64,000 nucleotides of DNA. Origin: a virus. Position 1 is the first letter of the stretch. Every line of letters starts with the position of its first letter. The stretch is taken from positions 45,586 through 109,585 of the IMG/VR virus record IMGVR_UViG_3300031952_000004. The stretch is one strand, 5' to 3'. Under the pieces are notes generated by a model. That model did no database searches, was not told the DNA's origin, and was given only the letters and a program-made list of their open reading frames with translations. Below are positions 31,110 to 60,499 of this stretch, piece by piece. Position numbers and translations under genes: made by a program.

Positions 31110-31718
31110 CTATTTTTTAGGATAAAGTATTTTATCTACTATTCCATACTTTAAAGCATCTTCGGGGAACAACCAAAGTTGTCCATTTTTAATTTGTGTT
31201 AATTGTCTTTGATTTAATTTAGTATGTTTTTTTAACATTTCATTCATTCTTTTTTCTAATCTAAATAAAAAACCAGCTTGGTCTTTAATATTTTGTACAT
31301 TACCTTGTAAAAGGTCAGAAGTACTATGTTGCATCCAAAATCCATTAGGAGTAATAAATCTTTTTTTACATACTATACTTATCATTGCTGCCATTGAGCA
31401 GGCTTCTCCTGAAATGATAGAATAAACAGGAGCATCTATGGCTTGTATTGTATCTATTATAGATAATCCATAAGTTACCCATCCGCCTGGACTGTTTATT
31501 TCCAAATTAATAGGTATAGTTTTATCTAGATAATTCATAGCTCTTATTTTAGAACAAACAATATCTGCACTAATATTATTAATTTCGTCGTAGAGAAGAA
31601 TATATCTATTTTTATTTAAAATTTTATAATAAAATTCTTCAGAGTATTTATCTTTTTTATCAATTTTCAAATCTTCTTTTATTTCTTCGTCGTCGTTATC
31701 CCGATAGATTTTATTCAT
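31110..31718 (-). CDS. ClpP-like serine protease, copy 1
   Basis: 202 aa. NSPGG at about 75 (ClpP NSPGG oxyanion loop), catalytic Ser108 in GEACSMAA and His131 in WMQHSTSD give the Ser-His pair; the third residue is not obvious (NGQLWLFPEDALKYGIVDKI in the place of the usual Asp region). The N-terminal 30 residues are charged and extra. A second copy lies at 33169-33735 and a transporter between them. It could process phage or host proteins or work as part of a hetero-oligomer with copy 2. Overlaps the transporter gene by 8 bases. Confidence 0.85.
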   Translation of the reverse strand: MNKIYRDNDDEEIKEDLKIDKKDKYSEEFYYKILNKNRYILLYDEINNISADIVCSKIRAMNYLDKTIPINLEINSPGGWVTYGLSIIDTIQAIDAPVYSIISGEACSMAAMISIVCKKRFITPNGFWMQHSTSDLLQGNVQNIKDQAGFLFRLEKRMNEMLKKHTKLNQRQLTQIKNGQLWLFPEDALKYGIVDKILYPKK

Positions 31719-32907: not shown

Positions 32908-33169
32908 GGCATTTTTTACAAAGGGTTATTCCCCAATAAATATCCCATAAAAATTTACAATGCAAAGCATCTTTAAATGATTTTATAGTTGAATGTGATT
33001 TTTTAATTTTTAAAATAGTAGACTTAGAATGTTTTTTTCCTATCATCCATTTTCCAAAATTTAATTTTTTAGCTATTTTTTTAAGTTTTTTACTTAATAA
33101 TAATTTAGTTTTTTTACTATGATGCTTTCCTTTAAATCCTAAACTGATATATTTTGATTTTTTATTCAT
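32885..33169 (-). pseudogene. Homing endonuclease remnant (NUMOD3 repeats, HNH lost)
   Basis: 94 aa. Two NUMOD3-like basic repeats (GFKGKHHSKKTK, GKKHSKSTIL) typical of DNA recognition by homing endonucleases are followed abruptly by ITLCKKCHDKIPKF, the last knuckle of an HNH domain. The catalytic HH/N/H core between them is absent, so this is an internal-deletion derivative. It starts in a TAATG overlap with the ClpP-like gene upstream and ends 23 bases inside the transporter start. Confidence 0.7.
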
Positions 33170-33735
33170 TATAATATTTTATCTATTATTCCTTTTACTA
33201 AACATTCTTCTGGAGATAACCACATTTCTCCATTACGTAAGGTTTGTATTTCTGTATCAGTTAATTTAGTATAAGTTTTTAGATGACTTTCAATTCTTTT
33301 CCATAATTTTTTAATAAAATCAGCTCTGTATTCTACTTTACCAGAATAATCTCCAGTAATTCCTCCAGACATATCATGACCCATCCATATAGCATTTTTA
33401 GTAATATAACGTTCTTTTCCTACAATAGAAATTAATCCTGCCATAGAACAGGCTTCTCCAATTATTATAGTGATAATAGGACTCTTAATCAATTTTATAG
33501 AATCTATTAAGGAAAAACCAGCAGCAATGTTGCCTCCTTCACTATTAACATATATTTTTATTGGTTTTTTATTCAAAGCATCTAATAAGAAAATCTCTTT
33601 AATTAATTTTATAGTATTTTCAGATTTTACTTCTCCTATTAAGAATAGAGTACGATGTTTTAATAAAATATCATCTACTTCTAATTTTTTATTTATATCT
33701 AATTTTTGAGGAACTATAGGTTTTTTATTTTTCAT
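33169..33735 (-). CDS. ClpP-like serine protease, copy 2
   Basis: 188 aa, paralogue of copy 1. NSEGG (oxyanion loop variant of NSPGG), Ser98 in GEACSMAG, His120 in WMGHDMSGG, and NGEMWLSPEECLVKGIIDKI at the end. Both copies share the Cys in GEACSMA. SD AGGAG upstream, separated by only 12 bases from a tiny HNH remnant. The divergence between copies suggests separate roles. Confidence 0.85.
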   Translation of the reverse strand: MKNKKPIVPQKLDINKKLEVDDILLKHRTLFLIGEVKSENTIKLIKEIFLLDALNKKPIKIYVNSEGGNIAAGFSLIDSIKLIKSPIITIIIGEACSMAGLISIVGKERYITKNAIWMGHDMSGGITGDYSGKVEYRADFIKKLWKRIESHLKTYTKLTDTEIQTLRNGEMWLSPEECLVKGIIDKIL

Positions 33736-33747
33736 TTTAAAATTCTC

Positions 33748-33828
33748 CTATTTTAATTTTAAATTACATTTTTTACAAGAAGTGATTAAATTGGTTTTTC
33801 TACAATCTATACAGTAATATTTTTTCAT
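33748..33828 (-). pseudogene. Tiny HNH remnant (26 aa)
   Basis: ORF of 26 codons: MKKYYCIDCRK (the first zinc knuckle of the endonuclease family) joined to NLITSCKKCN (the last HNH knuckle). All in between has been lost. It begins in an ATGA overlap with the membrane gene (33825-34352) and ends 12 bases before the ClpP-like gene, whose SD follows. It is the shortest relic of the family here. Confidence 0.75.
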
Positions 33829-34352
33829 ATTTGAATAATTAAGATAGATAGAAGGACAATTAATCCCCAAACTATAGTTTCGACCCAATTTAGTGTTTTA
33901 CCAAATAATTTATAACTTCCAAAATTTCTCCAACTCATTAAAGCATTTATCATACAAATACCTAAACTACATAAGATGTATACTAACCAATTTTTCTTTA
34001 AAATAGGAATTGAAATCAAAGATAGGGCAATTAACACTCCTATCGTTCCTCTCGTAAATACATTAGCTAAACTTTCATTATGATTGAATAAGTTATAAAA
34101 GAAAGCACCCAATTTACTTCCTTTATCATCTTCACAAGGAATTCCATAACCCATAGAAATAGGTATTGACATTAATATTATAGTTATAATTAATAAACTT
34201 TCTGTAGAAGAATAAGCTAAAGAAGTAATTAATCCAGGAATTAATATTCTTCTATATAATTTAGAAGAATTATCGGCTCCTCCCAATGCTCCTAAGAAAC
34301 CACCCAATAAAGGTAAAGCACAAGTTATTATTTTATTTATTATTTTTTTCAT
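33825..34352 (-). CDS. Phage membrane protein, five hydrophobic segments
   Basis: 175 aa with about five hydrophobic stretches and a Gly-rich first one (CALPLLGGFLGALGGAD). The middle has SIPISMGYGIPCEDDKGS. A membrane protein of this kind is often found in phage clusters, function unknown. Overlaps the M50 protease gene by 4 bases (ATGA). Confidence 0.7.
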   Translation of the reverse strand: MKKIINKIITCALPLLGGFLGALGGADNSSKLYRRILIPGLITSLAYSSTESLLIITIILMSIPISMGYGIPCEDDKGSKLGAFFYNLFNHNESLANVFTRGTIGVLIALSLISIPILKKNWLVYILCSLGICMINALMSWRNFGSYKLFGKTLNWVETIVWGLIVLLSILIIQI

Positions 34353-34957
34353 TTAATAGAACTCCAATATAATTGGAATAAATTATTTATCATTGGAATA
34401 CCCTTTATAACAAACCAGGGGAGTATAATAATATTTAAAAAAGTAAATATTCTTATAAATGTAGTAATCAATTTTTTTAATATAATAATACTTTTCTTTT
34501 TTCCTATAAATTTTTCTAGCAAGACTAATATAGGATAACTTCCATCCAATCCAGGAACTGGAATTAAATTACTCATTCCTGCTAACAAATTAAAAAATCC
34601 TATATACCACAAATAATAATTATTTATTTTTAAACTTAATAAACACATTAAAATACCAAAAATAATATTCACAAGGCATCCTGAAATTGCTATTAAAAGT
34701 TTTTTATAATATCTTAAATTCATAAAAGCAGTAGGACTTTTAGAAAAATCTAATTCTCCTTCTAATTCGCAATAACCGCCTAATAAGAAAGGAGTAATTT
34801 TATATATTGTTTTATTTATTTTTATTTCAAATCCAAATTTTCCAAAACCAAGACTATATTTAATAACTTTACATTTACATAATTTAGCAGTTATAAGATG
34901 GGCTGTCTCGTGTATACATATTAAGGCAATCAATGAAATTAGAAATAGTAATATCAT
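34349..34957 (-). CDS. Site-2-protease-type (M50) membrane metalloprotease
   Basis: 202 aa, mostly membrane segments. HETAH (H16, E17, H20) is the zinc motif HExxH in the first transmembrane helix and LIPVPGLDGSYP near residue 133 carries the second Asp motif (NPxPxxDG type, here PVPGLDG). This is the minimal core of the M50 family, which cleaves within membrane proteins. No PDZ domain is present. The SD comes from the end of the HNH fragment upstream (GGAGAACTAG-ATG). Possible targets include host signalling or membrane stress proteins, or phage membrane proteins; not determinable here. Confidence 0.8.
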   Translation of the reverse strand: MILLFLISLIALICIHETAHLITAKLCKCKVIKYSLGFGKFGFEIKINKTIYKITPFLLGGYCELEGELDFSKSPTAFMNLRYYKKLLIAISGCLVNIIFGILMCLLSLKINNYYLWYIGFFNLLAGMSNLIPVPGLDGSYPILVLLEKFIGKKKSIIILKKLITTFIRIFTFLNIIILPWFVIKGIPMINNLFQLYWSSIK

Positions 34958-35119
34958 CTAGTTCTCCATTAAATAAATAAAATAAGCATACCAATAATCA
35001 CGATTTATGTTTACTTTCAAATTGCATCCACGACAACTAGTAATTAAATTATCTTCTTTATTATTTTGTTTATTATAATTAATATGATGTACTGTTTTAT
35101 TTCTTTTAAATTTATTCAT
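34958..35119 (-). pseudogene. C-terminal HNH fragment (53 aa)
   Basis: From the ATG at 35119, one base after the deformylase stop: MNKFKRNKTVHHINYNKQNN, LITSCRGCN, NINRDYWYAYF and MEN end. Compared with intact members, the N-terminal knuckles and the first HNH cysteines are missing, but the HH...N...H core remains. The final ATGGAGAACTAG-ATG supplies the SD for the M50 gene, identical to the end at 41515. It may be non-functional. Confidence 0.75.
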
Positions 35120-35120
35120 T

Positions 35121-35762
35121 TTATTTGCGATAATTAACATCTCTATATCGGCGGTCGAATAAGACGATTCCTGATTGATGGTCGCACTCATGTTGTATTG
35201 CAAGTGCTTCTAAATCTTGTGAACAAGAAGTAAGTTCTTTAAAATTCTCATCTAAATATGTAATAGTAATATAGGTATATCTTTTTGTTGTTACGGAAAT
35301 TCCAGGAAAACTTAGACAACCTTCATTATTAACTCTAATAGGTCTATCGTGTTCAATAATTTTAGCATTAATCAAAATAAATTCATTGTATTGCATCTGT
35401 TTATTTTTGTCAACAAACTTTGGTATCTTAATATAAGAAATTTTCTTATTAATACCTATTTGATTGGCAGAAAGACCGATACCACCCTTATTAACTAAAG
35501 TATCTTTAAGGTCTCGAATAATGTCATCAACATCTTCTCCTTTTTCTACAAGAGCACAAGGCTTTTTTAATTCATTAATGTTTGTTATAATAGGAAAACC
35601 TGCTGGTTTTACTTCTATAAAAGTAGGTTTATAATCTTTTTCTAGCATTTTTTTTAATGCTTCTCTCTCTGATTTAGTTAAATAACCTTTTTCCATTTTG
35701 ACTTTTTGTTCTACTTTATAAATATCAAATTCTAATTGGTCTTTAAAAGTTTGTTTAATCAT
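35121..35762 (-). CDS. def: Peptide deformylase
   Basis: 213 aa; removes the N-formyl group from new proteins. All three motifs are present: GGIGLSANQIG (93-103), EGCLSFPG with metal-binding Cys149, and HECDH (191-195) with the two His ligands. It has an N-terminal extension of about 45 residues compared with typical enzymes. Phage deformylases are known mainly from marine and other large phages, where they may speed maturation of phage proteins. Neighbours are proteases and membrane proteins. It starts in an ATGA overlap with a 40-aa ORF. Confidence 0.9.
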   Translation of the reverse strand: MIKQTFKDQLEFDIYKVEQKVKMEKGYLTKSEREALKKMLEKDYKPTFIEVKPAGFPIITNINELKKPCALVEKGEDVDDIIRDLKDTLVNKGGIGLSANQIGINKKISYIKIPKFVDKNKQMQYNEFILINAKIIEHDRPIRVNNEGCLSFPGISVTTKRYTYITITYLDENFKELTSCSQDLEALAIQHECDHQSGIVLFDRRYRDVNYRK

Positions 35763-35881
35763 TTTTTGCTCCTTGCTCTTTTTAATAATTCTAAAATTAC
35801 ATCAGATTGCGTTATTCTTTTTGTTCTTTCGAGATACATCAATTCATCATAGTTTAATTTACTTAAAATTTTATCAATCAT
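35759..35881 (-). CDS. Small helical protein (40 aa)
   Basis: ATG at 35881 with AGGAGG eight or nine bases upstream (inside the previous gene end). The product is a basic amphipathic helix pair (ILSKLNYDELMYLERTKR, VILELLKRARSKK). ATGA overlap with the deformylase start supports coupled translation. Unknown function. Confidence 0.6.
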   Translation of the reverse strand: MIDKILSKLNYDELMYLERTKRITQSDVILELLKRARSKK

Positions 35882-35882
35882 T

Positions 35883-36317
35883 TTATTTTCCTCCTAAAAT
35901 TAATAAAATTGTTCCTATAATCATACCCCACCAATAGGTATAAGGTAATCCTAAGAACCATCTAAGATGCCATTCGATTTGTTGTTTACGAAATCTTCTC
36001 CAAGTGTAATGAGGATTAAACATGAACCATAAGGCATCTTCTACGACAAAAAACCAAGATACTAATCCTAAAACTTTTAATTCTGTTTTTAGACTACCTA
36101 ATTCGTTAATAAAACCTCCATGAAAAACAGTAATAAATAAAAGTAATAAATATATATGATAACCAGTTAATGGTTTTCCTCCTAATAAAGTTCTAAAGAA
36201 AACATTAATACGAAAAGTAGGAAGTTGTTTAGCCCATCCGTTTCTTCCTTCTACCTGTATTTCCCACAAAGCAGTTATAATAGCTAAGATTAATGTAAAG
36301 ATATAATATTTAATCAT
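35883..36317 (-). CDS. Four-segment membrane protein, unknown
   Basis: 144 aa with about four hydrophobic segments and conserved-looking aromatic motifs (HGGFINELGSL, FVVEDALWFMFNPHYTW, HLRWFLGLPYTYWWG). The clustered His/Trp/Asp near membrane edges suggests an enzyme-like membrane site, but no family was recognised. Overlaps the SprT-like gene by 4 bases. Confidence 0.65.
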   Translation of the reverse strand: MIKYYIFTLILAIITALWEIQVEGRNGWAKQLPTFRINVFFRTLLGGKPLTGYHIYLLLLFITVFHGGFINELGSLKTELKVLGLVSWFFVVEDALWFMFNPHYTWRRFRKQQIEWHLRWFLGLPYTYWWGMIIGTILLILGGK

Positions 36318-36892
36318 TCTTTTTCCTCGAATAGATTATTACAATTTAAACATTTAGCTTCCAAATAAGTAGCACACCTAATTGTAGTACATCCACAAGA
36401 ATATTTTTTCATCTTTGTAGGAGCAATTATTGTAAAATGAGTTTTTCTGTATAGTTTAAACGTAACTTCATTAGGTTTAATTTTTTCTATGATTTTCTTT
36501 AAATTATCAGATAAAGAAGTTAATCCCCATCCATGTCTTCCGTCTTTTTCTACGTTTAAACCGTAAATTTCTGCTCTTTCTTTAAATGCTTTATTGTGAT
36601 ATTGTTGTGAATTACAATCTTCAATCTTATCACAAGTATTAGAATAATGTACCATTTCATGAACTAAAGTTTCGATAGGATTATTATTTAATTCTTCTGC
36701 ACAAATATTAATTTCACTAATAGTTTGTTTACCTCGTTCCCATTTATTTTCCCAATGCCAACCAAGAACTTTTTGTCTACCTTTGGATTGAATGGTAATA
36801 ATAGGTCTAGGATATTTTAATTTAAATTCAATAGCTAGAGCATCATAGATTCTTTCTAATTCTTTAATAACTGGTATAATTGAATTATTCAT
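36314..36892 (-). CDS. SprT-like zinc metalloprotease
   Basis: 192 aa. LVHEMVHYSN (H78, E79, H82) is the SprT HExxH site, followed by a long helix with a third ligand candidate (NKAFKERAEIYGL) and a C-terminal four-cysteine zinc ribbon (YSCGCTTIRC ... KCLNCNN), the classical SprT architecture. Human SPRTN and related proteins cut DNA-protein crosslinks, so a DNA-repair role is possible. Overlaps the next upstream gene by 8 bases. Confidence 0.8.
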   Translation of the reverse strand: MNNSIIPVIKELERIYDALAIEFKLKYPRPIITIQSKGRQKVLGWHWENKWERGKQTISEINICAEELNNNPIETLVHEMVHYSNTCDKIEDCNSQQYHNKAFKERAEIYGLNVEKDGRHGWGLTSLSDNLKKIIEKIKPNEVTFKLYRKTHFTIIAPTKMKKYSCGCTTIRCATYLEAKCLNCNNLFEEKE

Positions 36893-37127
36893 TTTTCTTT
36901 TTATAAGTAGGAAATATACTGGGGAATTTTTTTCGTGCTATTCTCAATGCGATTAATCCCTGACATTTATGAATAGCTTCTGCAAATTCTTCTTTTTCAG
37001 AAGGATGTTGTTCTTCCAATTTAACAAAAGAATTATATGATTTAGTTAAATAATCCAATACTTGTTTTTCTAATTTAGTCAATTTTACTTTCTCCTTTTT
37101 CTCTAATAATATAAGTAAAGTACGCAA
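36885..37127 (-). CDS. Small helical protein, start uncertain
   Basis: 80 aa if started at 37127 inside the HNH gene; a TTG at 37079 with GGAG nine bases upstream would give a 64-residue product and fits the SD-in-endonuclease pattern seen at other junctions. Helical and charged (LEKQVLDYLTKSYNSF, EFAEAIHKCQGLIALRIARKK). The HxxCQxxxALRIARxxxP pattern is known from small phage proteins of unknown function. Confidence 0.6.
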   Translation of the reverse strand: MRTLLILLEKKEKVKLTKLEKQVLDYLTKSYNSFVKLEEQHPSEKEEFAEAIHKCQGLIALRIARKKFPSIFPTYKKKNE

Positions 37128-37764
37128 ACCAATAATCTCTGTTAAAATTTGCTATGGAATTACAGCTCTTACATGTAGTTATTAAATTCTCCTCTGCACA
37201 ATGTTCTTTATTATAATCTATGTGATGTACAGTATTTCCCTTCTTATTACATCTTTGGCAAGTATAATTATCTCTTTTTAGAATTAATGTTTTTAATTCA
37301 TCATCAAATTCAAATGGATAAGGCAAATTACTTATTCCTTCTTGCCAATTGGGATGATTTTTACCTTTAAATAAAATAGGTTGCAAATTAGTCCAATAAC
37401 ATTCTTGACATCTCGTTGATTGCCAACTAATCAATTTTTTACAATCCACGCAGTAGTTAGATTTAGTAGAACGCCCATCAATATAATTATGAACATTTTC
37501 AGGATTTTTAAAAAACTCTTTCATAGATTTACTATTAGCACAACCTCTGCATCTTCCTTGACCGTAATATCCCGATTGATATGTAATTTCTTTTTTACAA
37601 TCTACACAATAGTATTTTTTCATGGTTCTACCATCTATCAATCTACGTTGATTCTTTTGAGTCGCACAAGAACCACATTTGTTTGCATAATCGCAGATTA
37701 ATTTTCCACAATCCATGCAATGGTGATTTTTGATATAATGCTTTTTATATAATTTTACTTTCAT
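37075..37764 (-). CDS. HNH homing endonuclease with zinc knuckles
   Basis: 229 aa. Four knuckles precede the core: CMDCGKLICDYANKCGSC, CVDCKKEITYQ...RCRGC, CVDCKKLISWQ...CQEC, each separated by YIDGR-type spacers. The core has CQRCNKKG, TVHHIDYNKE, LITTCKSCN and NFNRDYWFAYF. All catalytic residues are present. It lies between the SbcC-like gene and the helical gene downstream, overlapping the former by 20 bases. The final codons include AAAGGAGAAAG, serving as SD for the gene after it. Confidence 0.88.
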   Translation of the reverse strand: MKVKLYKKHYIKNHHCMDCGKLICDYANKCGSCATQKNQRRLIDGRTMKKYYCVDCKKEITYQSGYYGQGRCRGCANSKSMKEFFKNPENVHNYIDGRSTKSNYCVDCKKLISWQSTRCQECYWTNLQPILFKGKNHPNWQEGISNLPYPFEFDDELKTLILKRDNYTCQRCNKKGNTVHHIDYNKEHCAEENLITTCKSCNSIANFNRDYWFAYFTYIIREKGESKID

Positions 37765-41514: not shown

Positions 41515-42243
41515 CTAGTTCTCCATAATATAAGTAAAATAAACATACCAATAGTCTCTGCCAGTATTGGTTTTATTATGACATTTATGACATAAGGTAA
41601 TTAAATTATCTTCCTTACAATTTTTTTTATTATAATCAATATGATGAATTGAAAGTTTTTTCTTTAAATCTTTTAATTCTTGTGTTTGCGTTTTGTTACA
41701 TAACTGACATTTGTGGCTGTCTCTTTTAAGAATCTTAGTTTTTAATTTTTCATTCCATTGTTGATTATATGGTTCTTTGCCATTTCCATCAATATACATT
41801 GGATTTTTCTTTCCTAATTTATGGAAGCGTTCATTACAAGACTTACAACGTTTAACTTTGTAGGATTTGGCTCTATTTCCACAATCAATACAGATAGATT
41901 TACCGCCAGTCCATGTAGGCGAATTAATCCCCATTAATAATTTTAATATTGGAGAATCATTATAACATTGTTTATTACAATAATTATGTTGATTATGTTT
42001 TAATTGATATGGATAAATTAATATAGATTTTTTACAAGTAAAACATTTAACTCTTATCAATCCTTTATAACTCGGATTTGATTTCCCACTTAATGTTTTT
42101 ACATAACACTTTTGACATCTTTTTGATTTATAAATAGATTTTGCATTTCCGCATTTGCAGAAATATTTTTTCATTGTTCTACCATCTTTATAAGATGGAT
42201 TATTTTTCCCTACATTAATATGATAACCCTTACGAGTATTCAT
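41515..42243 (-). CDS. HNH homing endonuclease with zinc knuckles
   Basis: 242 aa. Knuckles: KCGNAKSIYKSKRCQKC, CFTCKKSI, CIDCGNRAKSYKVKRCKSC, each after NPSYKG / MYIDGNG-like spacers; core: CQLCNKTQ, SIHHIDYNKKN, LITLCHKCHN, NTGRDYWYVYF, ending IMEN. Catalytic residues are present. It follows a tag-ATG junction at 42243/42244 and its last codons ATGGAGAACTAG-ATG are identical to those at 34958 and provide the SD of the SbcD-like gene. Confidence 0.88.
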   Translation of the reverse strand: MNTRKGYHINVGKNNPSYKDGRTMKKYFCKCGNAKSIYKSKRCQKCYVKTLSGKSNPSYKGLIRVKCFTCKKSILIYPYQLKHNQHNYCNKQCYNDSPILKLLMGINSPTWTGGKSICIDCGNRAKSYKVKRCKSCNERFHKLGKKNPMYIDGNGKEPYNQQWNEKLKTKILKRDSHKCQLCNKTQTQELKDLKKKLSIHHIDYNKKNCKEDNLITLCHKCHNKTNTGRDYWYVYFTYIMEN

Positions 42244-42513: not shown

Positions 42514-42655
42514 TATCGAATCCTCCAAATATGTCTTTAAAAAAATCAGGAATATTCTTATCTTGACATTTAGCACATAATCCATTTTTAAGTGCGGTAA
42601 AATTATTACATTTTTTACAACAATCTAGATAAAAGACATCTTCGTTATAAGGCAT
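42497..42655 (-). CDS. Small zinc-binding protein (52 aa)
   Basis: ORF of 52 codons with CCKKCNNFTALKNGLCAKC, a complete four-cysteine knuckle, then PDFFKDIFGGF. It begins 11 bases inside the RNA ligase gene and ends inside the next gene start. Short but with a clear metal site, so it is probably real. Confidence 0.6.
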   Translation of the reverse strand: MPYNEDVFYLDCCKKCNNFTALKNGLCAKCQDKNIPDFFKDIFGGFDNEKEK

Positions 42656-43220
42656 CTTTTCCTTTTTCGTCGTTTTCTATAGTTTTTTTGAAATAAACAT
42701 TAGCAGATTTATGATAAATAATAATTCCTTCGGGATTCGCAAATCTAGTTGAAGATGAAGCATAACTTCCTGTATTTTTTAAATTAGTCAAAACGTTTTC
42801 TATTTGAAAAGTATCAAATATTCCTTCATAAAGAATAGGTACGACATAACAACATTCAGGACAGTATTCTTGTTTATCTTTTAGAGGAATATCTTTATCT
42901 TTTATCCACCTACTAACATTAAATAAAGAAAATCTTTTTTCTTGTAAATTATACCCTCTTTGTATTTCCTTGCCCCAAAACTCTCCATAATGATAACCTT
43001 TACCTAATTTTAATAATTCTTCTTTATTATCCATTACCCAATGCCAAAATCCATGATTATCGTTATGGTCGTCTAACCATTTATTTTTACTTCCTGCATA
43101 AATATTATTATTTTCATCAATAAAGATAAGTCCGCATGTGCCATCAATTTTTTCTGTAATAATAATATCTCTACTTAATCTTGGTATTTTAGGGAATCCT
43201 CTAAATTCTGGTAATATCAT
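42645..43220 (-). CDS. RNA ligase family protein
   Basis: 191 aa. Nucleotidyltransferase motif I is TEKIDGTCG with the lysine K24 that takes the AMP; motif IIIa-like GEFWGK, motif IV PEGIIIY and motif V VYFKKT follow in order. So it is a covalent nucleotidyltransferase of the RNA ligase type, likely able to seal RNA breaks, for example tRNA cut by host defence. Residues NECPECC-like CxxC (EYCPECC) add a metal site. The C-terminal OB-type extension of longer ligases is missing. Confidence 0.8.
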   Translation of the reverse strand: MILPEFRGFPKIPRLSRDIIITEKIDGTCGLIFIDENNNIYAGSKNKWLDDHNDNHGFWHWVMDNKEELLKLGKGYHYGEFWGKEIQRGYNLQEKRFSLFNVSRWIKDKDIPLKDKQEYCPECCYVVPILYEGIFDTFQIENVLTNLKNTGSYASSSTRFANPEGIIIYHKSANVYFKKTIENDEKGKDAL

Positions 43221-45357: not shown

Positions 45358-46269
45358 TTAAACCTCCTTATAAGGCACATGAATATAATCTAATATCTTA
45401 CCTACTCCTAATTCATTAATACAATAATTATAAAGTTGAGGATGAGTTTTAGCCATGCATTGAAATTTATTAGGTTCCTTTTCTAAATGAGTTCCAAACA
45501 TACAAAACATACATCCAGTTCTTAATTGTCCTTTATCATAAATAGTTGCATATTTTAGATTGTTCTTTTTAATATATGCCCAAACATCTTCTTCTAACCA
45601 AACTGATAAAGGTCTTGATTGAATCTTACCTTCAAAAGAATTACATCCATATTGTAAATAAGTAATTTCTCTCAATCTACTTTCATTTGCCATTGTACCG
45701 ACATAGGGATGCAATCCTGTTTTCTTAGTATAATTTTTGAATGGAAGTTTTTTCATTACATCACAGCATTGGTCGGAAATTTTAAAAGGAGCCTTAATTA
45801 AAAATCTCCATTTTTCTGGTACTTTCCAACTTCCAGATGCTTTTTTTCCATCTCCTCTTATACCTGTTAAATAGAGGTTCCTTATTATTTTATTTCCTTT
45901 TGTAGGATTCTGTAAAGTTGAAATCATTGAAGCAATTTTTTTACTAGTAACTGGATAACCATAGGTATCTAAAACTTGTTTAAAAGTCATTTCGGGTCTA
46001 ATAATTTCTACATTTTCAGTTTCTCGGACAAATTGTATCACTTCCGGCCATTCTAGACCTGTATTTACGAAGACTGCTTTGACATGAGGATATATTGACC
46101 TTACTAAATGTAAAAGAACTGTACTGTCTTTTCCTCCAGAAAAAGAGATACATACATCTCCTTCTAATTTTTCATAAAATTCTCTTATTCTTTTATTAGT
46201 AAACTTAATTTTTGCCTCTAAAGGTAATGATTGTCTTTGTTTAAGTTCCCAAATCTTTACTTTAGGCAT
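45358..46269 (-). CDS. PAPS-reductase/PP-loop ATP pyrophosphatase-type enzyme, copy 1
   Basis: 303 aa. P-loop SFSGGKDST (44-50) binds the pyrophosphate of ATP or PAPS. VNTGLEWPEV and SDQCCDVMKK follow the family; late RTGCMFCMFG has two cysteines of a possible metal site, and GTMANESRLRE also fits. It may act on sulfur or on nucleic acid (as in DndC/PAPS-reductase phage genes). It overlaps the start of copy 2 by 1 base. Confidence 0.82.
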   Translation of the reverse strand: MPKVKIWELKQRQSLPLEAKIKFTNKRIREFYEKLEGDVCISFSGGKDSTVLLHLVRSIYPHVKAVFVNTGLEWPEVIQFVRETENVEIIRPEMTFKQVLDTYGYPVTSKKIASMISTLQNPTKGNKIIRNLYLTGIRGDGKKASGSWKVPEKWRFLIKAPFKISDQCCDVMKKLPFKNYTKKTGLHPYVGTMANESRLREITYLQYGCNSFEGKIQSRPLSVWLEEDVWAYIKKNNLKYATIYDKGQLRTGCMFCMFGTHLEKEPNKFQCMAKTHPQLYNYCINELGVGKILDYIHVPYKEV

Positions 46270-47012
46270 TAATATCCTCCTAATTTTTTATCAAAAATAC
46301 CTTCTTCTATTTCTTTCTTAAAACGAACATCCAAATCGGTAACATAAATTGGAGGAAATCTATCTTTTCCTTTTTTATTATTAATATGCCCCACTTTAAA
46401 TGGACTTTTGGTTTTAGATTGCATTTTTAATAATTCTTTCCATAAATCGGGAAAATTCTTATACAAACCTCTTAATGATGTCATTGGTTGTAAAGGACAG
46501 CACCAGCACGATGCACTACTCATACACTTATAAAGATTCTCAAAATTGAATCCTTTATCTTTACAATAATCTAAACAATCCTGTTCAGTCATTCTCCATT
46601 CTATTAAAGGAAGTATTACTGTTTTATCATCTGCATATCTTTTTGCTCTATATTCTTCACCTTTTGTAAGTCCAAGATAATTAACAAAAGGTTTTTTGTC
46701 TTTTAAATATTTGTGAATTGCAGTTTTTTTCAATCCTGTACACCAACGAATATTGAAACGAGGAAATCCCAATCCAATTCCCCTTTTATTTGGTTTTTCA
46801 TACATATACCATTCAAATGATTTTTCTGGTTTAAGCCAAACAATAGGTCTTTTAATATATTCTTCAACTTTTTTAACAGTAGTATAAATAGCAGGGAATT
46901 CCCATCCTGTATCAAAGAACAAAATTTCATCTATTTGCTTTTTTTCTTCAAGTAATCTTATAAGCATAGCAGTAGAATCTTTCCCACCTGAATAACTAAC
47001 TATATAGTGCAT
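46269..47012 (-). CDS. PAPS-reductase/PP-loop enzyme, copy 2
   Basis: 247 aa. VSYSGGKDSTAML (8-14) is the PP-loop. FFDTGWEFP, RFNIRWCTGLKK and LGLTKGEEYRAKRY follow, with Cys-rich SASCWCCPLQPM near residue 168 as a probable iron-sulfur or zinc site. It is clearly related but not redundant to copy 1: Cys positions and length differ. The pair may form one complex for base, tRNA or DNA sulfur modification; unproven. SD AAAAGGAAAAA is weak. Confidence 0.82.
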   Translation of the reverse strand: MHYIVSYSGGKDSTAMLIRLLEEKKQIDEILFFDTGWEFPAIYTTVKKVEEYIKRPIVWLKPEKSFEWYMYEKPNKRGIGLGFPRFNIRWCTGLKKTAIHKYLKDKKPFVNYLGLTKGEEYRAKRYADDKTVILPLIEWRMTEQDCLDYCKDKGFNFENLYKCMSSASCWCCPLQPMTSLRGLYKNFPDLWKELLKMQSKTKSPFKVGHINNKKGKDRFPPIYVTDLDVRFKKEIEEGIFDKKLGGY

Positions 47013-47326: not shown

Positions 47327-47535
47327 TTTTCTTCCTCCTTTTTATCTGCCTTTCTATCTATCTTCCTTCTCTCTTTTTTAGGTTTAATTTCTTTTATTAA
47401 TGATAAATCCCATTTTAATGCTTCAAAAATATGTTCAACCTTTGAAATTATACTTCTTTCTATCATTTTAGACCACGCAATCTTGGATTTATCTAATAAA
47501 TCTACAGTATTTTCATCAAAAGCAATTGGAATCAT
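47323..47535 (-). CDS. Small helical Lys-rich protein, unknown
   Basis: 70 aa; begins MIPIAFDENTVDLLDKSK and ends in a basic tail KKERRKIDRKADKKEEEK. The ATG at 47535 is one base into the HNH stop region (TAATG) and its SD (AAAGGAG) is inside the HNH gene. Not recognised. Confidence 0.6.
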   Translation of the reverse strand: MIPIAFDENTVDLLDKSKIAWSKMIERSIISKVEHIFEALKWDLSLIKEIKPKKERRKIDRKADKKEEEK

Positions 47536-48080
47536 TATTTTGCTCCTTTTTTTAAATTATCAACTGCCCACAGAGGTTGTAAGTTAGTATAATGAAAACA
47601 TTTGCGTTGTTCTGACTTTTTTCGCAAATCAAATGAAGCACAGGGTTTAATATGGTCTATGTGCCACAATCCATAGTTAGACCACGACATATTTTTTAAA
47701 AACTGTGATTCTAAATGTTGTTTTAATTCTTTTAAAGAACAACCAATTAATTTCAATATGGAAGTAGATTTATGAATTTTTTTTAATACTTTTCGCAATC
47801 TTTGTCTAAGACAAATTCGTATTCTAAAATTAATATCTCTATGGTACCTATTATATTTGTAAACATTATCTTGTTCGATGGTTTCTTTTTTATGGTCTTG
47901 ATAATACTTTTTTCTTTGTAAACTTATTTTTTCTTTATTTAGTCGGTCATACTCTTTTTTATATAAAGCAATTTCTTTTTTATGAATTTTATTATAAATT
48001 TTTCGAATTAAAAGAATTTTTTTCTTATGTAATTGATAATATTCTTTTGCGTATTGTTTCCAATCTTCTTTAGTCCACAT
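47535..48080 (-). CDS. HNH homing endonuclease with basic helical linker
   Basis: 181 aa from the ATG at 48080; a longer reading from 48200 lies inside the polymerase gene. Begins MWTKEDWKQYAKEYYQ, then a Lys/His/Glu helical region with YNKIHKKEIALYKKEYDRL repeats, and a core WHIDHIKPCASFDLRKK, CFHYTNLQPLWAVDNL. It is the sister of 10853-11581 but lacks its N-terminal CxxC knuckle. Lies right after the polymerase gene (11-base overlap), and GGAG near its end is the SD of the next gene. Confidence 0.83.
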   Translation of the reverse strand: MWTKEDWKQYAKEYYQLHKKKILLIRKIYNKIHKKEIALYKKEYDRLNKEKISLQRKKYYQDHKKETIEQDNVYKYNRYHRDINFRIRICLRQRLRKVLKKIHKSTSILKLIGCSLKELKQHLESQFLKNMSWSNYGLWHIDHIKPCASFDLRKKSEQRKCFHYTNLQPLWAVDNLKKGAK

Positions 48081-51000
48081 AATAAATCCACCAATAATTA
48101 TCACCCAATTGCTTATCAAATTTTCCAAATATTTTTTTGCTATTATTTTTTGCTTGAATATGAATTGGTAATTTTCTAATAAAAGTTGTTCCTTTAGCAT
48201 TTGTTACTATAGTTTTGTACTCTCCATCTTGTTTTGTTAATCTTGCAGGAAATCCAATATCTTGCAGGGGTAATGTTTTAATCTTTTCTTTTTCAGAATT
48301 AATCCATTTTACTATTTCTTCTTGTGGTTCTTCATTCATAATCTTTTCAATTAAAATCGTTTGAAATTCTTTAATGAATTTTGAACTATCTTTTCTTTTG
48401 GCTTCTATACCTTTGATTTCTTCTTTTAATTTTCCATTTAATTTTCTTAAATATCCTTTATAATGGCACATAGCTACGATTAAAATTTTTTCAAATCTAC
48501 CTTCACATTCAAATTTAATATCAATTCTTTCTCTATTATATCTTTCTTTAGCCCATTGTTGTATTAATTGATTAAACAATTCTGTAGGATTTTCTTTTGA
48601 TTCTATCATAATACCATCAGTATCCAAATAAATAACATTGATTCCTTTTTCTTTTATTTTATCTTCTGTATAATGAAGTAAATCTCTTGCAATTGAAGTA
48701 ATTGCTGAAGCAATATGAACATTATAAAGTCTAAAAATCTTTAATCCACATACTCCAAAAAGAGAATTAACAACCGCTTTGATTGCATCATATTTTATTT
48801 GTAAATCTTTACCTTCTTCAGATTCTGGATTTGCTTGTTCTAATTCTTTTTTAATAGTATCTTTTTTATTTAATAATTTTCTTGCAATAATTGGTAATAA
48901 AGTATTTTGATTTTGTGTCATGTAAATAGAATATTTAAAAGTATTTGTTTCTCTATCAGTAATATCTATTTTCTGACTATGTTTATCTTCTGTTAAATTT
49001 GAAACATCTAAACATAAATTATTAATAATAGATGGATAAGTTCCCGAAATATCCATTTTCCAAATATTATTTTTAAAAAAACCTAAATCTGCTCTACGAT
49101 AAGCTCCTTCAAATTCAATTTCATCAGAAATTTCTTGTCCATAATGTTTAGAGGGTAAAATGATTCCTTTTTGTTTAGCTTCTCGAAGTAGAATCATATC
49201 TATCATTTTAGAATTCCAACAAACATCCGACCACTCGCACATACTCATTCTTCTAAGTTCATCGTAATATTCTACAATTTCTAATTTCTTATCTAAATCT
49301 ATCATCCTTCTTACATCGTTTATATTTTTTTCTTTAATTTCATCAGCCAATCTACTAAAATCTACCTTTTTATAAGACTGTTCTTTTAATTCTTTTTGAC
49401 AAACTGCATCTAAAGCATAAGAAGATTCTGTACGGTAAATTTTCTTATACATTTCTAAATAATCCATAACACTTATACCAGCAGGAATAAGATTTGGTTC
49501 TACTTCTTGTTTACCCCCCAAATATCTTGCTTGAGCAATTGGACTTAACATTTCTGCCAATTCACATCCAAATAATTTTTTATATCGGGCACAAAGATAA
49601 CGCCAATCGAATTCAATAAAATTCCAACCGCAATTATGTGTAAGCAAATTATTTGCTATAAATAAATGATGTTTGTCCAGAGTAATATCTATTAACTTTA
49701 AATTTTTTATATTTTTAATTTGTTTTATTGAATTAAAAAAATATGTGTTTATATATTTATTCAATTCATCTAATTTTGTTATTTGATACTTGGATAGTTT
49801 GTTAGTTTTTATTATATCGATAATATAATGCACAAATTCTCTTGTAATTGTTTGATTTGAACAAAAAAGTTTCATTTTATCTTTATAGGAAAGTTTAACA
49901 TTCCATTCTTCGATAAGTTTTAATAATAAATTTTTAATGGGAATGGTATCTATATGATTAACTGTATGTTTTAAAAATAACTTCTTTTTTGGATGTTTTA
50001 AAAATAAACGATAATTCTTAGAAGAACTATAAATTCTTAAAGTATAACATTTTTGTTTTGATTTTTTACCCGAATATCCATTATCTTTTTTATTCGGGAT
50101 TCCGATTCCCCACAAAACCCAAGACATCCAATCAATCAAAACTTCATTAGTATTGCTAAATGATAAACTATTTCCTGTATAAGTGCCATCTGCATCTATC
50201 AACCCACTAATAATATTAGTTTGTTGATTTGTATTTAATCCATAAAGATAAATACTTAAATTTTTATACAATATATCTATACTTTTTTTCCAATCATTAG
50301 CTTTTAAAGAATTTTTGCTATATAGATGATAACAATTATTATACTTATGAAGATACATGGCTATTCCATTTCTATTGAGTATTTTTTTAACTATACCCAT
50401 CATTTCTTCATTGTCATCTCTTACTTCCAATCGATTCTGTTTACCTTTTGTACCATCTCCCAAATAATACCCCACAAACCAAAAATATTCATCTTCTTGT
50501 CCATAATAGGGTAAATAATTTATTGGGGTTAAAATAAAATCCTTTTTTGTTAATTCTTTTGCTTGTTTTATTGTTTTAAAATTATCATGTTTATAAACTA
50601 AATTATTAAGATTAGTAATTAAAAATGGATGATTTTTTGAAGATTTGATTGTATTTGTTCTTGTTTGTATTTCTAATCCTTCTTCTTGTTTCTTTGATAT
50701 TCTGATAATTTTTGCTTTTGTAAAATCATTATGGCGATTAATTGATAACACTTCCTCTTCTAATTCTATATCTTTTAAAATTTTAAAACCTTTATGGGTT
50801 TTAATTTTTGTATTTTCATCTAAACACAATAAATCAAATTGTTGCTCTTTTATCCATTTAACGAAGGCATCCAATAATTTTTTTTCTAATTCACTCCAAT
50901 CTTTAACAGCAATTCTAGGGTCTAAATAATCTTTTAAATAAAATGTTTTAATCTCTTCTGTATAAGAATTAGAACATGAAATACATGAAATCGGCTGTTC

Positions 51001-51354
51001 TGGATAAAGATAATTGGGTAATTCTTTAGTAAGAACTTCGATGTCTATGAAAGAATACTTTAAATCTGATTTACCAAAACTGACGATTTTATCTATAATA
51101 TATCGCTTTGTGAAAAGTATATCGGCTTCATAACTTCCTTCATCTCTACGATTCTTTACATCAGAAGGACGAGAACAAAGGACTTTATTAACTTTTTTAT
51201 TGTCTATTGTTTTAAAAATTCCAGTAGGCGAGACTTGATAGAAATAAGGAAAGAAAGTTTTATCCTTAAACAAAGAAAGAGTTTTTCCGATTCTATGCCA
51301 CACATAAATTTCTCTCCCCACATTAGCAATATTACAAACGTTAAAGTTTAACAT
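48070..51354 (-). CDS. Family B DNA polymerase with intein in the exonuclease domain
   Basis: 1094 aa precursor, 696 aa without the intein. Exonuclease motif I is FIDIEVL (103-109), motif II NFIEFD (578-583) and motif III EYYDELRR (near 698). Polymerase motifs: A WKMDISGTYPS (D767), B KAVVNSLFG (N863), C YLDTDG (909-914). So both 3'-5' proofreading and polymerisation residues are present; it is the phage replicase. The intein (177-574) interrupts just before GWNFIEFD, so it disables proofreading domain folding until excised. It overlaps the HNH gene by 11 bases. Confidence 0.9.
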   Translation of the reverse strand: MLNFNVCNIANVGREIYVWHRIGKTLSLFKDKTFFPYFYQVSPTGIFKTIDNKKVNKVLCSRPSDVKNRRDEGSYEADILFTKRYIIDKIVSFGKSDLKYSFIDIEVLTKELPNYLYPEQPISCISCSNSYTEEIKTFYLKDYLDPRIAVKDWSELEKKLLDAFVKWIKEQQFDLLCLDENTKIKTHKGFKILKDIELEEEVLSINRHNDFTKAKIIRISKKQEEGLEIQTRTNTIKSSKNHPFLITNLNNLVYKHDNFKTIKQAKELTKKDFILTPINYLPYYGQEDEYFWFVGYYLGDGTKGKQNRLEVRDDNEEMMGIVKKILNRNGIAMYLHKYNNCYHLYSKNSLKANDWKKSIDILYKNLSIYLYGLNTNQQTNIISGLIDADGTYTGNSLSFSNTNEVLIDWMSWVLWGIGIPNKKDNGYSGKKSKQKCYTLRIYSSSKNYRLFLKHPKKKLFLKHTVNHIDTIPIKNLLLKLIEEWNVKLSYKDKMKLFCSNQTITREFVHYIIDIIKTNKLSKYQITKLDELNKYINTYFFNSIKQIKNIKNLKLIDITLDKHHLFIANNLLTHNCGWNFIEFDWRYLCARYKKLFGCELAEMLSPIAQARYLGGKQEVEPNLIPAGISVMDYLEMYKKIYRTESSYALDAVCQKELKEQSYKKVDFSRLADEIKEKNINDVRRMIDLDKKLEIVEYYDELRRMSMCEWSDVCWNSKMIDMILLREAKQKGIILPSKHYGQEISDEIEFEGAYRRADLGFFKNNIWKMDISGTYPSIINNLCLDVSNLTEDKHSQKIDITDRETNTFKYSIYMTQNQNTLLPIIARKLLNKKDTIKKELEQANPESEEGKDLQIKYDAIKAVVNSLFGVCGLKIFRLYNVHIASAITSIARDLLHYTEDKIKEKGINVIYLDTDGIMIESKENPTELFNQLIQQWAKERYNRERIDIKFECEGRFEKILIVAMCHYKGYLRKLNGKLKEEIKGIEAKRKDSSKFIKEFQTILIEKIMNEEPQEEIVKWINSEKEKIKTLPLQDIGFPARLTKQDGEYKTIVTNAKGTTFIRKLPIHIQAKNNSKKIFGKFDKQLGDNYWWIYYVD
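49633..50826 (-). mobile_element. LAGLIDADG intein in DNA polymerase (398 aa)
   Basis: N-terminal CLDENTKI (C177), block B SSKNHPFL (His but Ser in place of Thr), dodecapeptides FVGYYLGDGTK and ISGLIDADGTY, and end LLTHN before Cys of the extein. Insertion lies just before the exonuclease II motif GWNFxEFD, an uncommon polB site compared with motifs A-C. All splice residues are present. Confidence 0.92.
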
Positions 51355-52158: not shown

Positions 52159-52401
52159 TTAAATTAAAGCTATAATTATTAATATCCTTAAAAATGTAAT
52201 AATAATTAAACCTATTCCTATACCTATAATATTAGCTAACATATCTAACCAATCAAAACCTGTTCCATAAAAACGGTCATATATTTCTTTAAAAAATCCT
52301 AATAATAACGTTAATAATACTCCTAATGTTATACCTAAAAATAATCCTAATAAAATCATTAATGTTAAAGATACATAAAAATGCAATAATTTATCTTCCA
52401 T
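52159..52401 (-). CDS. YfiM/VanZ-like small membrane protein
   Basis: 80 aa, two or three hydrophobic segments. The N-terminus DKLLHFYVSLTLM and the middle FFKEIYDRFYGTGFDWLDMLANIIGIGIG match the pattern KExxD...GTGFSWxDLxA of YfiM (DUF2279)-like membrane proteins. ATG at 52401 shares one base with the terminase stop (TAATG). Role in phage unknown. Because of the duplicated terminase tail after it, the gene may have entered by recombination. Confidence 0.65.
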   Translation of the reverse strand: MEDKLLHFYVSLTLMILLGLFLGITLGVLLTLLLGFFKEIYDRFYGTGFDWLDMLANIIGIGIGLIIITFLRILIIIALI

Positions 52402-54995
52402 TAAATTTCTCCAAAATAACCCAAACCTGGTTTTTTTCTTGTTATAGGTTTAATTTCTTCCATTTCTTTTAAAAAATGAGTAATAGCAAATACTTGAAAT
52501 GCTTGAAATAAATGATTTGCTCCTTTACAACTATATAATATTTTTCCTTGTTTACTTCTTACTACTATAATATTATTTATTTGAGTATCTAATTTAATAT
52601 CTTCATAACATTGTATTTTCTTATTATAAAAAATATCCTTTAAACATTGAATAGACCAATCTACAACGTTTGCTTTTTTCATAACAGGATGTCCTTCTTT
52701 ATCTCTTATTTCTTTACCTTTATCATCTCTTTCAAAATCTATTTCTATATTAGAATTAAAATCTATAGGGATGATATTTTCTGGGTATTTTTTAATTAAA
52801 TGACTATATAAAGATTTCCCTACACCACTAGAATGGTCTAATCCTACAATATTAGGTTGTAAAATTTCTATTAAATATTCTATAAAATCCTTTTCTTCAT
52901 CTGGAGATAATTGAAAAGTAGTAATTCTATAAATATATTTATAAATTTTATTTGTTTTAGAAACGATAATATATTCCGAAGGTGCTCCGCCTTCTCCTAC
53001 GTCGAAATAAATTCCTAAACTTTCTGCATTATTTGGTTTTTCTATAATAATAATTTCTTTATATCTAAAATAACTATCTTTATTTACTTCGAATGATTTT
53101 ATAGGAATACCCATACCCTGCTTATCTAAAATATAAGTTTGTCTAATTCGTTGAATATCAAATACACTTTCTGCTCCTTCGATGACTTTTCCATCTATTT
53201 GAACTTGATATCCGATAGAATCCTTTCCTCCGAATTCCTTTATAGCGTCTGCTTCTTTTTTATCGTTCCAAGTCGGATTCACGTAAGAAGGAAGATTAAC
53301 AATTTTCTTTTTATTTTCTAAATTAAAAAATATTTCTCCCATTGGAGATGTTTTTGTAAAAGTTGTCATACCGCTATTATGAACAATAAATCCATTAGCT
53401 ATAAATGAATGACATTTAGTTTCTATATCATATACTTGTTGATTTTCTAAATATCCTTTACATTTTATCTGTTCTTTATTAAATATTGGTCTACGAATAT
53501 TAAGAATAGTTTTCCTATATCTTAATCCTTTTTTACAAGGCATTTCGTAAAAAGGTAACTCATATTTGTTAATCGAAAACTGCACAGATTTATTAGATTC
53601 TCTATAATTTTTACAATATTTTAGTTTTAATATATTTAAAATAGATTCTATTTTTTCAACTTTATTCCTATTAGTTTTATTTGATTGGGTAATCATCATG
53701 GAACCATCATTTCCCAAATATCCATCTCCAATAATAAATCCAATTAAAAAACCATACATACTATCTTTCAATATTTCTAATTCTTTATATGCTTGTAACA
53801 TTATATAATTGCTATTTCTATTAATATTAAATCTATATGGAGTTTTTTTGTTCCAACCATGTTTTTTTTGTTCTATTTTAGTATACATTATATTCAATTT
53901 TTGTAATAACCATTCAATAAAATCAACTTCATCTGATTGATGTATTATAAATTGATGTAAGATTTCTTCTTTTCCTTTTAATATATAATGAGAACCATCA
54001 CTTTCTATTAAACCTATTAATACCCCTCTTAAATAATAATCTATATTATGCAGATAATTAATACTTTTCATAAAATATTTATATCTCATACATCCATAGG
54101 CTTCTCGCCATTTATAAACTTTATCTCCTTCACTCAAACACCGAATTTTATGTTCGGGAGTTAACCACAGTTCATTTCGACTATCATCTATTTTAATAAC
54201 ATCTCGTATTCCAGAATCAAATAAATTTAGTACTTCAGTTTCTATTAGAGAATTTTGTTTTTCATCCCAAGCAATAATTAAATCGTTTTGTTGTATATCT
54301 TCTATATTTTTGGTAGAAAAATCAAACATTAATATTTTAGTTCCTTCTCTAATACAAAAACGATTTATACATCCTTTTTCAGATTGAGCCATTAACATTT
54401 TTCCAGAAACATCTTTAGTAAGATAACTAGATTCTTCCATATATTGTCTATCATAATGTTTACCGAAATATTGTCCACCTGGATTTTTACCTGTAATATT
54501 TTGATTAACACTTTCTAATAAAAGTCCACTATCAAAATTTAATTTATAGGTGGGACTCCGTAAGGGATGACAATTTAAAAATTTCATTATTTTATGATTC
54601 TCAAAACAATTAATTAATTTTTCAAAGATTTCTAATAAATGTAGTTTATCATAAGAAGAAATAACAGCCCATTTATAAACTTGATTAAAAGTACAAACTA
54701 AAACATCTATTGTAATAGCAATAATAGATTTGCCTGTAAGACGACCTCCTAATGCATAACTTTCTGCTAGATTATTTTTTACTTCCCAATTCTTTTCTTT
54801 AGATAATTTTTTATCTTCTAAAAATAAAGAATCATAACTCAACATAGGATATTGATATAATCTTATAAACCCAAATTTATTCTTATCAAAAACTCCTAGA
54901 GAATCAAAATCGTGAAATAAAATCTGAGATGCACTTATTGGATGAGTCATTACTTCAAAAAATATTAAATCTTCTTGTTTAATTTTTAGTATCAT
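52401..54995 (-). CDS. Large terminase subunit with intein
   Basis: 864 aa precursor from the ATG at 54995 (a longer reading from 55031 overlaps an HNH fragment, which ends at 55000 and carries the GGAG SD); about 537 aa after splicing. Walker A GGRLTGKS (83-90), Walker B YMEESS (E187/E188), and the coupling motif RF-SGMTTFTKTSP interrupted by the intein. The nuclease domain has GIYFDVGEGG, IVGLDHSSG and VVDWS as acidic site candidates. It pumps DNA into the prohead and cuts it. The small subunit was not clearly identified. Confidence 0.9.
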   Translation of the reverse strand: MILKIKQEDLIFFEVMTHPISASQILFHDFDSLGVFDKNKFGFIRLYQYPMLSYDSLFLEDKKLSKEKNWEVKNNLAESYALGGRLTGKSIIAITIDVLVCTFNQVYKWAVISSYDKLHLLEIFEKLINCFENHKIMKFLNCHPLRSPTYKLNFDSGLLLESVNQNITGKNPGGQYFGKHYDRQYMEESSYLTKDVSGKMLMAQSEKGCINRFCIREGTKILMFDFSTKNIEDIQQNDLIIAWDEKQNSLIETEVLNLFDSGIRDVIKIDDSRNELWLTPEHKIRCLSEGDKVYKWREAYGCMRYKYFMKSINYLHNIDYYLRGVLIGLIESDGSHYILKGKEEILHQFIIHQSDEVDFIEWLLQKLNIMYTKIEQKKHGWNKKTPYRFNINRNSNYIMLQAYKELEILKDSMYGFLIGFIIGDGYLGNDGSMMITQSNKTNRNKVEKIESILNILKLKYCKNYRESNKSVQFSINKYELPFYEMPCKKGLRYRKTILNIRRPIFNKEQIKCKGYLENQQVYDIETKCHSFIANGFIVHNSGMTTFTKTSPMGEIFFNLENKKKIVNLPSYVNPTWNDKKEADAIKEFGGKDSIGYQVQIDGKVIEGAESVFDIQRIRQTYILDKQGMGIPIKSFEVNKDSYFRYKEIIIIEKPNNAESLGIYFDVGEGGAPSEYIIVSKTNKIYKYIYRITTFQLSPDEEKDFIEYLIEILQPNIVGLDHSSGVGKSLYSHLIKKYPENIIPIDFNSNIEIDFERDDKGKEIRDKEGHPVMKKANVVDWSIQCLKDIFYNKKIQCYEDIKLDTQINNIIVVRSKQGKILYSCKGANHLFQAFQVFAITHFLKEMEEIKPITRKKPGLGYFGEI
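53376..54356 (-). mobile_element. LAGLIDADG intein in terminase (327 aa)
   Basis: Begins C214 (CIREGTKI), block B WLTPEHKIR, dodecapeptides VLIGLIESDGS and FLIGFIIGDGY, and ends GFIVHN. The +1 residue is Ser (SGMTT), so it uses a Ser nucleophile. Splicing regenerates RF-SGMTT, the ATPase coupling motif region. The site is in the ATPase domain. All key residues present. Confidence 0.93.
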
Positions 54996-54999
54996 AAAT

Positions 55000-55179
55000 C
55001 TAATTCTCCAAAAAATATTTAAAATACACAAACCAATAATCTCTATTATAATTAACTTTTGAATTACAACTATTACAAACTGTAATTAAATTATTTTCGT
55101 TACAATTTTGTTTATCATAATCGATGTGATGAATTAATATTCTTTTTTCTTGTTTAGTTAGATTTTTATTGGTAATCAT
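55000..55179 (-). pseudogene. C-terminal HNH fragment (59 aa)
   Basis: ATG at 55179 in an ATGA overlap with the upstream gene. MITNKNLTKQEKRILIHHID, then CNENNLITVCNSCN, NYNRDYWFVYF and LEN end. The zinc-knuckle half is missing and the first Cys pair of HNH is absent, so it is probably a remnant. The final GGAGAATTAG supplies the SD of the terminase gene. Confidence 0.7.
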
Positions 55180-60265: not shown

Positions 60266-60499
60266 TTATTTTTTTTCATCTTCTTTTATATTTTTAATTA
60301 TTTTATTGAATTCTCTGCGTTGCTCTACGATTTCGAGTTCTTCTTTTATCATTATAAAACTCTGCATAAGAATTTGTTCGCTCAAGATTATTTTTTGTTT
60401 TATTCCAGAATGATTTTTAAACATTTTTTTTAATAAAGAATATTGTCGATTCATTATGTGATACACTTCATTTAATTTTTTAATTTGTTTAATTATCAT
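60266..60499 (-). CDS. Small helical protein (77 aa)
   Basis: All helix (IKKLNEVYHIMNRQYSLLKK, IKEELEIVEQRREFNKIIKNIK). It overlaps the primase-helicase stop by 4 bases (ATGA), so it is probably coupled and may be an accessory. Not recognised. Confidence 0.6.
   Translation of the reverse strand: MIIKQIKKLNEVYHIMNRQYSLLKKMFKNHSGIKQKIILSEQILMQSFIMIKEELEIVEQRREFNKIIKNIKEDEKK

Follow-up and report, generated by a model that had tools for sequence, protein, structure and literature searches.

Enzymes resembling PAPS reductase are found in several described systems, among them SspD of SspABCD DNA phosphorothioation, DndC, and BrxP of type 4 BREX, all three of which are described in passages of PMC12839542 and PMC10853773. 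According to a passage in PMC12193691, three cysteines (Cys) common to DndC and APS reductase serve as cluster ligands and DndC adds a fourth, C273. For TtcA, part of PMC5372739 reports a three-cysteine cluster that is proposed to leave one iron open for sulfur. In phages, genes of this kind usually carry an assimilation label, as in a passage of PMC6145125. Text in PMC11437467 considers that the functions of phage PAPS-reductase homologues may extend past sulfur metabolism and brings up phosphorothioation, and a section of PMC10945359 cites an anti-Dnd role for phage PAPS-reductase genes. The same section describes vibriophages that carry a PAPS-reductase gene and grow on both Dnd+ and Dnd- strains, and concludes that the gene gives no Dnd protection there.

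The two genes analysed here, A and B, belong to this known, widespread and functionally unproven phage family. Many phage "PAPS reductase" genes are counted as sulfur-assimilation genes, and the IMG/VR collection yielded 171 confirmed stretches of the A type and 461 of the B type. Our analysis adds a link of B to methyltransferases and a kinship of B with SspD, which together offer a testable angle. We found no account in the literature of partner-less SspD-like phage genes beside methyltransferases, and such work may still exist.

The gene pair and its surroundings

The window, which is the whole 64,000-nucleotide stretch of DNA that was analysed, covers bases 45586-109585 of a 109,585-base tailed-phage contig whose genes encode a B-family DNA polymerase with an intein, RecA-like and SMC-like proteins, and a terminase (the terminase recognised by eye). 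Genes A and B both have intact reading frames on the minus strand, to which all of their features given below belong, and B comes first. Gene B (46269..47012) encodes a putative stand-alone SspD-like PP-loop protein of 247 amino acids, and gene A (45358..46269) an APS-reductase-like PP-loop protein of 303 amino acids with four putative [4Fe-4S] ligands. Base 46269 is common to the stop codon of B and the start codon of A (a TAATG overlap), and a Shine-Dalgarno-like AGGAGG site for A lies inside the end of B (46276..46281). The same TAATG overlap was observed in four related loci (L005-L008), and an 8-base overlap in another (L004).

Both proteins match Pfam PAPS_reduct above the cut-off (3.8e-26 for A and 1.5e-12 for B) and, over most of their length, the PHROG 424 profile (5.2e-54 and 8.6e-47, respectively). 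The original prediction of two adjacent PAPS-reductase-type genes overlapping by one base is thus borne out by the two intact frames, the two domain matches and the common base. Chance is no serious alternative for the domain identity of the pair, its overlap or the Cys patterns described below.

Two small genes of 89 and 70 amino acids and an endonuclease VII-like gene lie upstream of the pair. On the downstream side there are a gene of 70 amino acids, a weak match to a Holliday-junction resolvase and, at a distance of about 2 kb, an RNA_ligase gene (42645-43220) on the same strand as A and B. A cysteine desulfurase was not found in the contig, nor was a DNA methyltransferase when three Pfam families were searched.

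Cysteine patterns, folds and relatives

The PP-loop motif SGGKDST is intact in both proteins: it lies within the conserved SFSGGKDST of A (residues 42-50; 46120..46146) and within SYSGGKDST of B (residues 6-14; 46971..46997). Key residues of both proteins are invariant in their relatives. Six Cys residues of A (C168, C169, C209, C253, C256 and C283) do not vary across all 59 non-redundant viral sequences compared, the window's included; C283 is also kept in 22 of 23 GenBank phage sequences and is replaced by Val in one. Protein B has four invariant Cys residues (C91, C150, C169 and C172; 36 of 36 sequences), of which C150 is missing in some distant relatives. The predicted difference between the two Cys patterns, six residues against four at different places, was therefore confirmed, and alignments suggest that this difference is meaningful. 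The C168-C169 pair of A (45763..45768) and its CMFC motif with C253 and C256 (45502..45513) align with the CC and CxxC motifs of APS reductase 2goy. In B, C91 (46740..46742), which lies within RWCT, is common to SspD and DndC, and the CWCC motif with C169 and C172 (46497..46508) aligns with the CxxC of these two proteins. A joint alignment placed C168, C253 and C256 of A in the columns of C91, C169 and C172 of B, which are the three cysteines common to SspD and DndC; the column of A's fourth cysteine is occupied by Thr in B, SspD and DndC.

Confident structural models were predicted for both proteins (pLDDT 95.2 for A and 91.4 for B). The nearest solved folds are APS/PAPS reductases in both cases (for A, VIA-align Z 18.9 over 188 residues with rmsd 3.8, plus ties; for B, Z 12.8 over 159 residues with rmsd 3.4), and the sulfurtransferases LarE, NcsA and TtuA appeared as lower matches. 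No solved SspD or DndC structure was present among the matches in sequence and fold searches with A and B. The fold by itself leaves the chemistry undecided.

Phylogenetic analysis (FastTree, 34 sequences, 228 columns) placed B as a sister of SspD proteins from four Ssp operons with a support of 0.94, and B, SspD and DndC together with a support of 0.93. Protein A stands apart from these and groups with an archaeal virus protein (0.96), with CysH nearby at only 0.67. The similarity between A and B is remote (32% identity over 63 residues). Because of this remote similarity and the different branches, a recent duplication as the origin of the pair was rejected.

The resemblance of B to SspD includes the PP-loop SGGKDS, RWCT...LK and CxxC at matching columns, i.e., the three-cysteine RWCT...CxxC pattern which is also found in DndC. 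SspD was the top PADLOC match for B (1.4e-23) and for all three other phage B proteins that were tried. However, the PADLOC SspD score of B is 82 bits versus 442 and 368 for two true SspD proteins, its identity to four aligned SspD sequences is 21-27%, and the C-terminal CxxCH motif of these four is absent from B in the alignment. By score, B appears not to be SspD proper.

Genomic context was examined in plasmids as well. A search with B matched 65 plasmid records, of which six were examined. Four of these matches directly follow genes for DUF4007 (SspB) and a large ATPase (SspC), and one of the four operons also contains a cysteine desulfurase. The fifth (L181) resembles a prophage gene and has a cytosine methyltransferase nearby, and the sixth (L183), which is the closest to B, has a phage-like context. 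In viral records, SspB (DUF4007) was found in none of 47 (27 A-bearing and 22 B-bearing, 2 of them bearing both), and all three Ssp plasmid controls were positive. An additional search of the window's contig did not find DUF4007 either, and this particular search matched in no control genome. Neither SspB nor SspC was present in the fetched A or B loci, so that the DNA-binding and ATPase partners known from phosphorothioation are missing. Considering the SspD/DndC Cys pattern and the sister position to true SspD, B is probably a stand-alone SspD-like protein without SspB and SspC. The plasmid gene in L181 (5929-6903, an Acinetobacter record) represents a third phage-type PAPS_reduct lineage and lies one gene from the cytosine methyltransferase.

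Among the other known families, DndC aligns with A and B in the PP-loop and the three cluster cysteines. On the other hand, the scores for TIGR03183 are far below its cut-off of 290.4 (14.7 bits for B and 17.1 for A), and neither protein has a counterpart to the extra cysteine pair 245/256, located before CxxC, of DndC L279. The spacing of this pair equals that of C262/C273 of E. coli B7A DndC in a passage of PMC12193691. The DndC-like features that had been suggested as a check are present in B as a DndC/SspD-type relationship, but B scores below the cut-off of the DndC family model and lacks the extra cysteine pair. The best PADLOC match of A was BrxP (6.3e-21), but the BrxP model covers 779 residues and A matches two partial stretches of it with its 303 residues. 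PHROG 424, a phage "phosphoadenosine phosphosulfate reductase" with widespread phage relatives, is matched by both proteins, and its label lumps at least two separate lineages, A and B.

Occurrence and genomic neighbours

The distribution of A and B was analysed in IMG/VR using the best 80 of 171 confirmed A stretches and the best 80 of 461 B stretches. B adjoins A in five loci (L004-L008) among the best 80 of 171 A loci. When 50 of the 80 A records were searched over their whole length, a true B was detected in three (E below 1e-98); the other 47 gave only a weak match to the B query, which was taken as the A gene itself. Conversely, 50 B-bearing records (48 outside the window's clade plus L004 and L005) contained a true A in two, L004 and L005. 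Records with both genes always belonged to the window's own clade. In the sister contig L009, A shares about 84% identity with the A of the window, and B is absent; a DruA-like gene (PF14236, 2.2e-11; L009:5324-5998) occupies B's slot between the 89-aa gene and A. These occurrences do not support the earlier suggestion that A and B may act jointly. A joint A and B system as a general rule was rejected because the pair was found only in the window's clade, and this restricted pairing, together with the DruA-like gene in the B slot, indicates that B is an exchangeable neighbour rather than an obligate partner. A and B are translationally linked here, but they are not an obligate pair.

A second DruA-like gene is located about 3 kb from A in L082, the sole other A locus matched, and the DruA-like query gave no match in GenBank phages; a passage of PMC12774648 notes DruA-like proteins in phages. 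The A gene of L009 has an in-frame TAG at codon 7 (L009:6001-6030), so this copy may be broken, differently started or misassembled.

To characterise the genes next to B, we used 142 B loci outside the window's clade, comprising 73 from IMG/VR and those 69 of 80 bacterial-genome loci that have a B frame above 100 bits. These loci were chosen by similarity to B and not at random, each scan contributing its best 80. B proteins were clustered at 70% into 54 groups with one locus each, and adjacent genes of 100-1500 amino acids were considered. Pfam analysis of the 76 genes adjacent to B revealed N6_N4_Mtase (11), C5 DNA_methylase (5), Dam (1) and ParB_N (9). Among 134 genes located 4-5 places from B, three C5 methylases were present among the families listed, and N6_N4_Mtase was not among the families with at least two members. 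The proportion of methyltransferases is therefore 17/76 next to B, counted as family matches so that one protein matching two families would lower the 17, versus at least 3/134 at distance 4-5 (P-value = 3.6e-6, Fisher's test). Since the control value covers the families listed, several single methyltransferases could be uncounted; with five more assumed, which raises the control count from 3 to 8, a P-value of 6e-4 results.

These Pfam scans superseded our first enrichment test, which was based on a loose methyltransferase motif. By this motif, 35 of 188 B-adjacent genes of at least 150 amino acids were methyltransferase-like, 34 of the 35 being co-directional with B and 34 of the 35 overlapping it or separated by a gap of at most 20 bases. 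The 35 form 10 clusters at 40% identity, and 20 of them fall into one cluster. With one locus per 60% cluster the B signal vanishes (1/10 versus 7/88, P-value = 0.59), implying that the number of independent events is limited. The association of B with methyltransferases fits an anti-restriction role.

For A, methyltransferases were not enriched among adjacent genes (4/66 by motif), and Pfam analysis of 89 A neighbours identified three N6_N4 members and one D12. A methyltransferase link of A was rejected, as the next-door enrichment was not significant. In one phage group (L045, L046 and L064), A has an SPPY-type methyltransferase on one side and, on the other, a DPPY-type one at a distance of two genes, as judged by motif. 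In a group of gut phages, B is located between the terminase and portal genes and A between the portal and head protease genes. The position of B in these phages indicates that a neighbour need not be a partner. Gut phages with this arrangement (L089, L090 and L098) are classed as Ca. Heliusvirales.

Candidate chemistry and targets

We see roughly an even chance that A and B are separately acquired phage PP-loop Fe-S sulfur-transfer enzymes, neither of which is an assimilatory sulfonucleotide reductase, and that B acts on DNA in an anti-restriction role. Both proteins would belong to the ATP pyrophosphatase (PP-loop) superfamily, bind an Fe-S cluster and move sulfur. In B, the PP-loop may use ATP for target activation, and C91, C169 and C172 might hold a cluster with one iron free to carry sulfur, which could be supplied by a host cysteine desulfurase. 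The most likely target of B would be DNA, where the sulfur might serve as an anti-restriction mark. In A, the same ATP fold is predicted, the cluster would be bound by four cysteines (C168, C169, C253 and C256), and C209 and C283 could carry a persulfide; its target may be either phage DNA or an RNA. Of the original prediction, the PAPS-reductase-type fold and a putative ATP (adenylate) and sulfur chemistry are supported. The anti-restriction role it proposed gains support for B from the DndC/SspD-type relationship and the methyltransferase link.

A more specific version, which we consider unlikely in its entirety, is that B is a widespread minimal SspD-like phage enzyme which functions without SspB and SspC, is aimed at DNA by ParB-type/C5 methyltransferase partners and installs a sulfur anti-restriction mark, while A would add a second sulfur chemistry in the same operon in the window's clade. 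The missing partners, the loss of the signal at 60% clustering and the window phage itself, which lacks a methyltransferase of the three Pfam families, are evidence against the sulfur-transfer reading. Should B be a stand-alone SspD-like enzyme that modifies DNA, many PAPS reductase labels would be incorrect, and phages would possess a way around restriction that is based on sulfur.

Several other roles were considered. The GenBank labels imply auxiliary sulfate assimilation, in which A, or both proteins, would reduce APS/PAPS and boost the cysteine supply during infection. APS/PAPS reductases are indeed the best structural matches, and A has all four cysteines of the CC...CxxC cluster motif of APS reductase. 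In addition, C283 of A, 27 residues past C256, is presumably about where the catalytic tail cysteine of APS reductase sits. However, E. coli CysH, used as a control, has a degenerate loop (SSFGIQAAV), an ECGLH tail and zero cluster cysteines, whereas the PP-loops of A and B are intact and the ECGLH tail is absent from both. The same divide, between CysH and the SGGxDS ATP pyrophosphatases, is drawn in a passage of PMC8175902. Moreover, the NCBIfam cysH scores of A (53.8) and B (22.5) are far below the cut-off of 165.1. Assimilation-type chemistry for both proteins, which was the outcome that would have contradicted the original prediction, is made less likely by the intact PP-loops and the lack of the tails; assimilation by A or by both seems very unlikely to us, and the "PAPS reductase" label appears to be misleading for A and B.

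It is also conceivable, but in our estimation improbable, that the substrate is host tRNA, thiolated by A, by B or by both, for instance as a protection against anticodon nucleases and in concert with the downstream RNA ligase. The tRNA thiolases NcsA and TtuA are structural neighbours of both proteins, enzymes of this family use a PP-loop and three cysteines (according to part of PMC5372739), and the RNA ligase gene lies on the same strand. By sequence, however, B is nearest to SspD and not to TtuA or NcsA, and its neighbourhood signal consists of DNA methyltransferases. No tRNA genes were found in the window or the whole contig, and RNA ligase was absent among the families listed for 89 A-locus and 83 B-locus neighbours. 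Another role, in which we place very little belief, is interference with host phosphorothioation defence by inactive or dominant-negative decoys that bind SspC/SspB, DndDE or IscS. The resemblance of B to only the SspD core, with CxxCH missing, and the absence of SspB and SspC are what a partner-less competitor might display; yet B keeps the PP-loop and the three cluster cysteines, which suggests catalysis, and the methyltransferase link points to modification.

Other features of the window were also noticed. Homing-endonuclease/HNH-like frames were recognised by eye at 2360-3013, 7930-8598, 10853-11581, 37075-37764, 41515-42243 and 47535-48200, the last of which matches PHROG endonuclease VII in a profile search. 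Pfam identified the intein in the DNA polymerase B gene, and inspection by eye suggests inteins in the terminase, primase/helicase and 28747-30411 frames as well; the window frames listed for inteins are 48070-51354, 52401-55031, 60496-63534 and 28747-30411. Finally, a run of host-like genes (31110-36892) contains two ClpP-like frames (by eye), an MFS/BT1 transporter, an M50 protease, a peptide deformylase and a weak SprT match.
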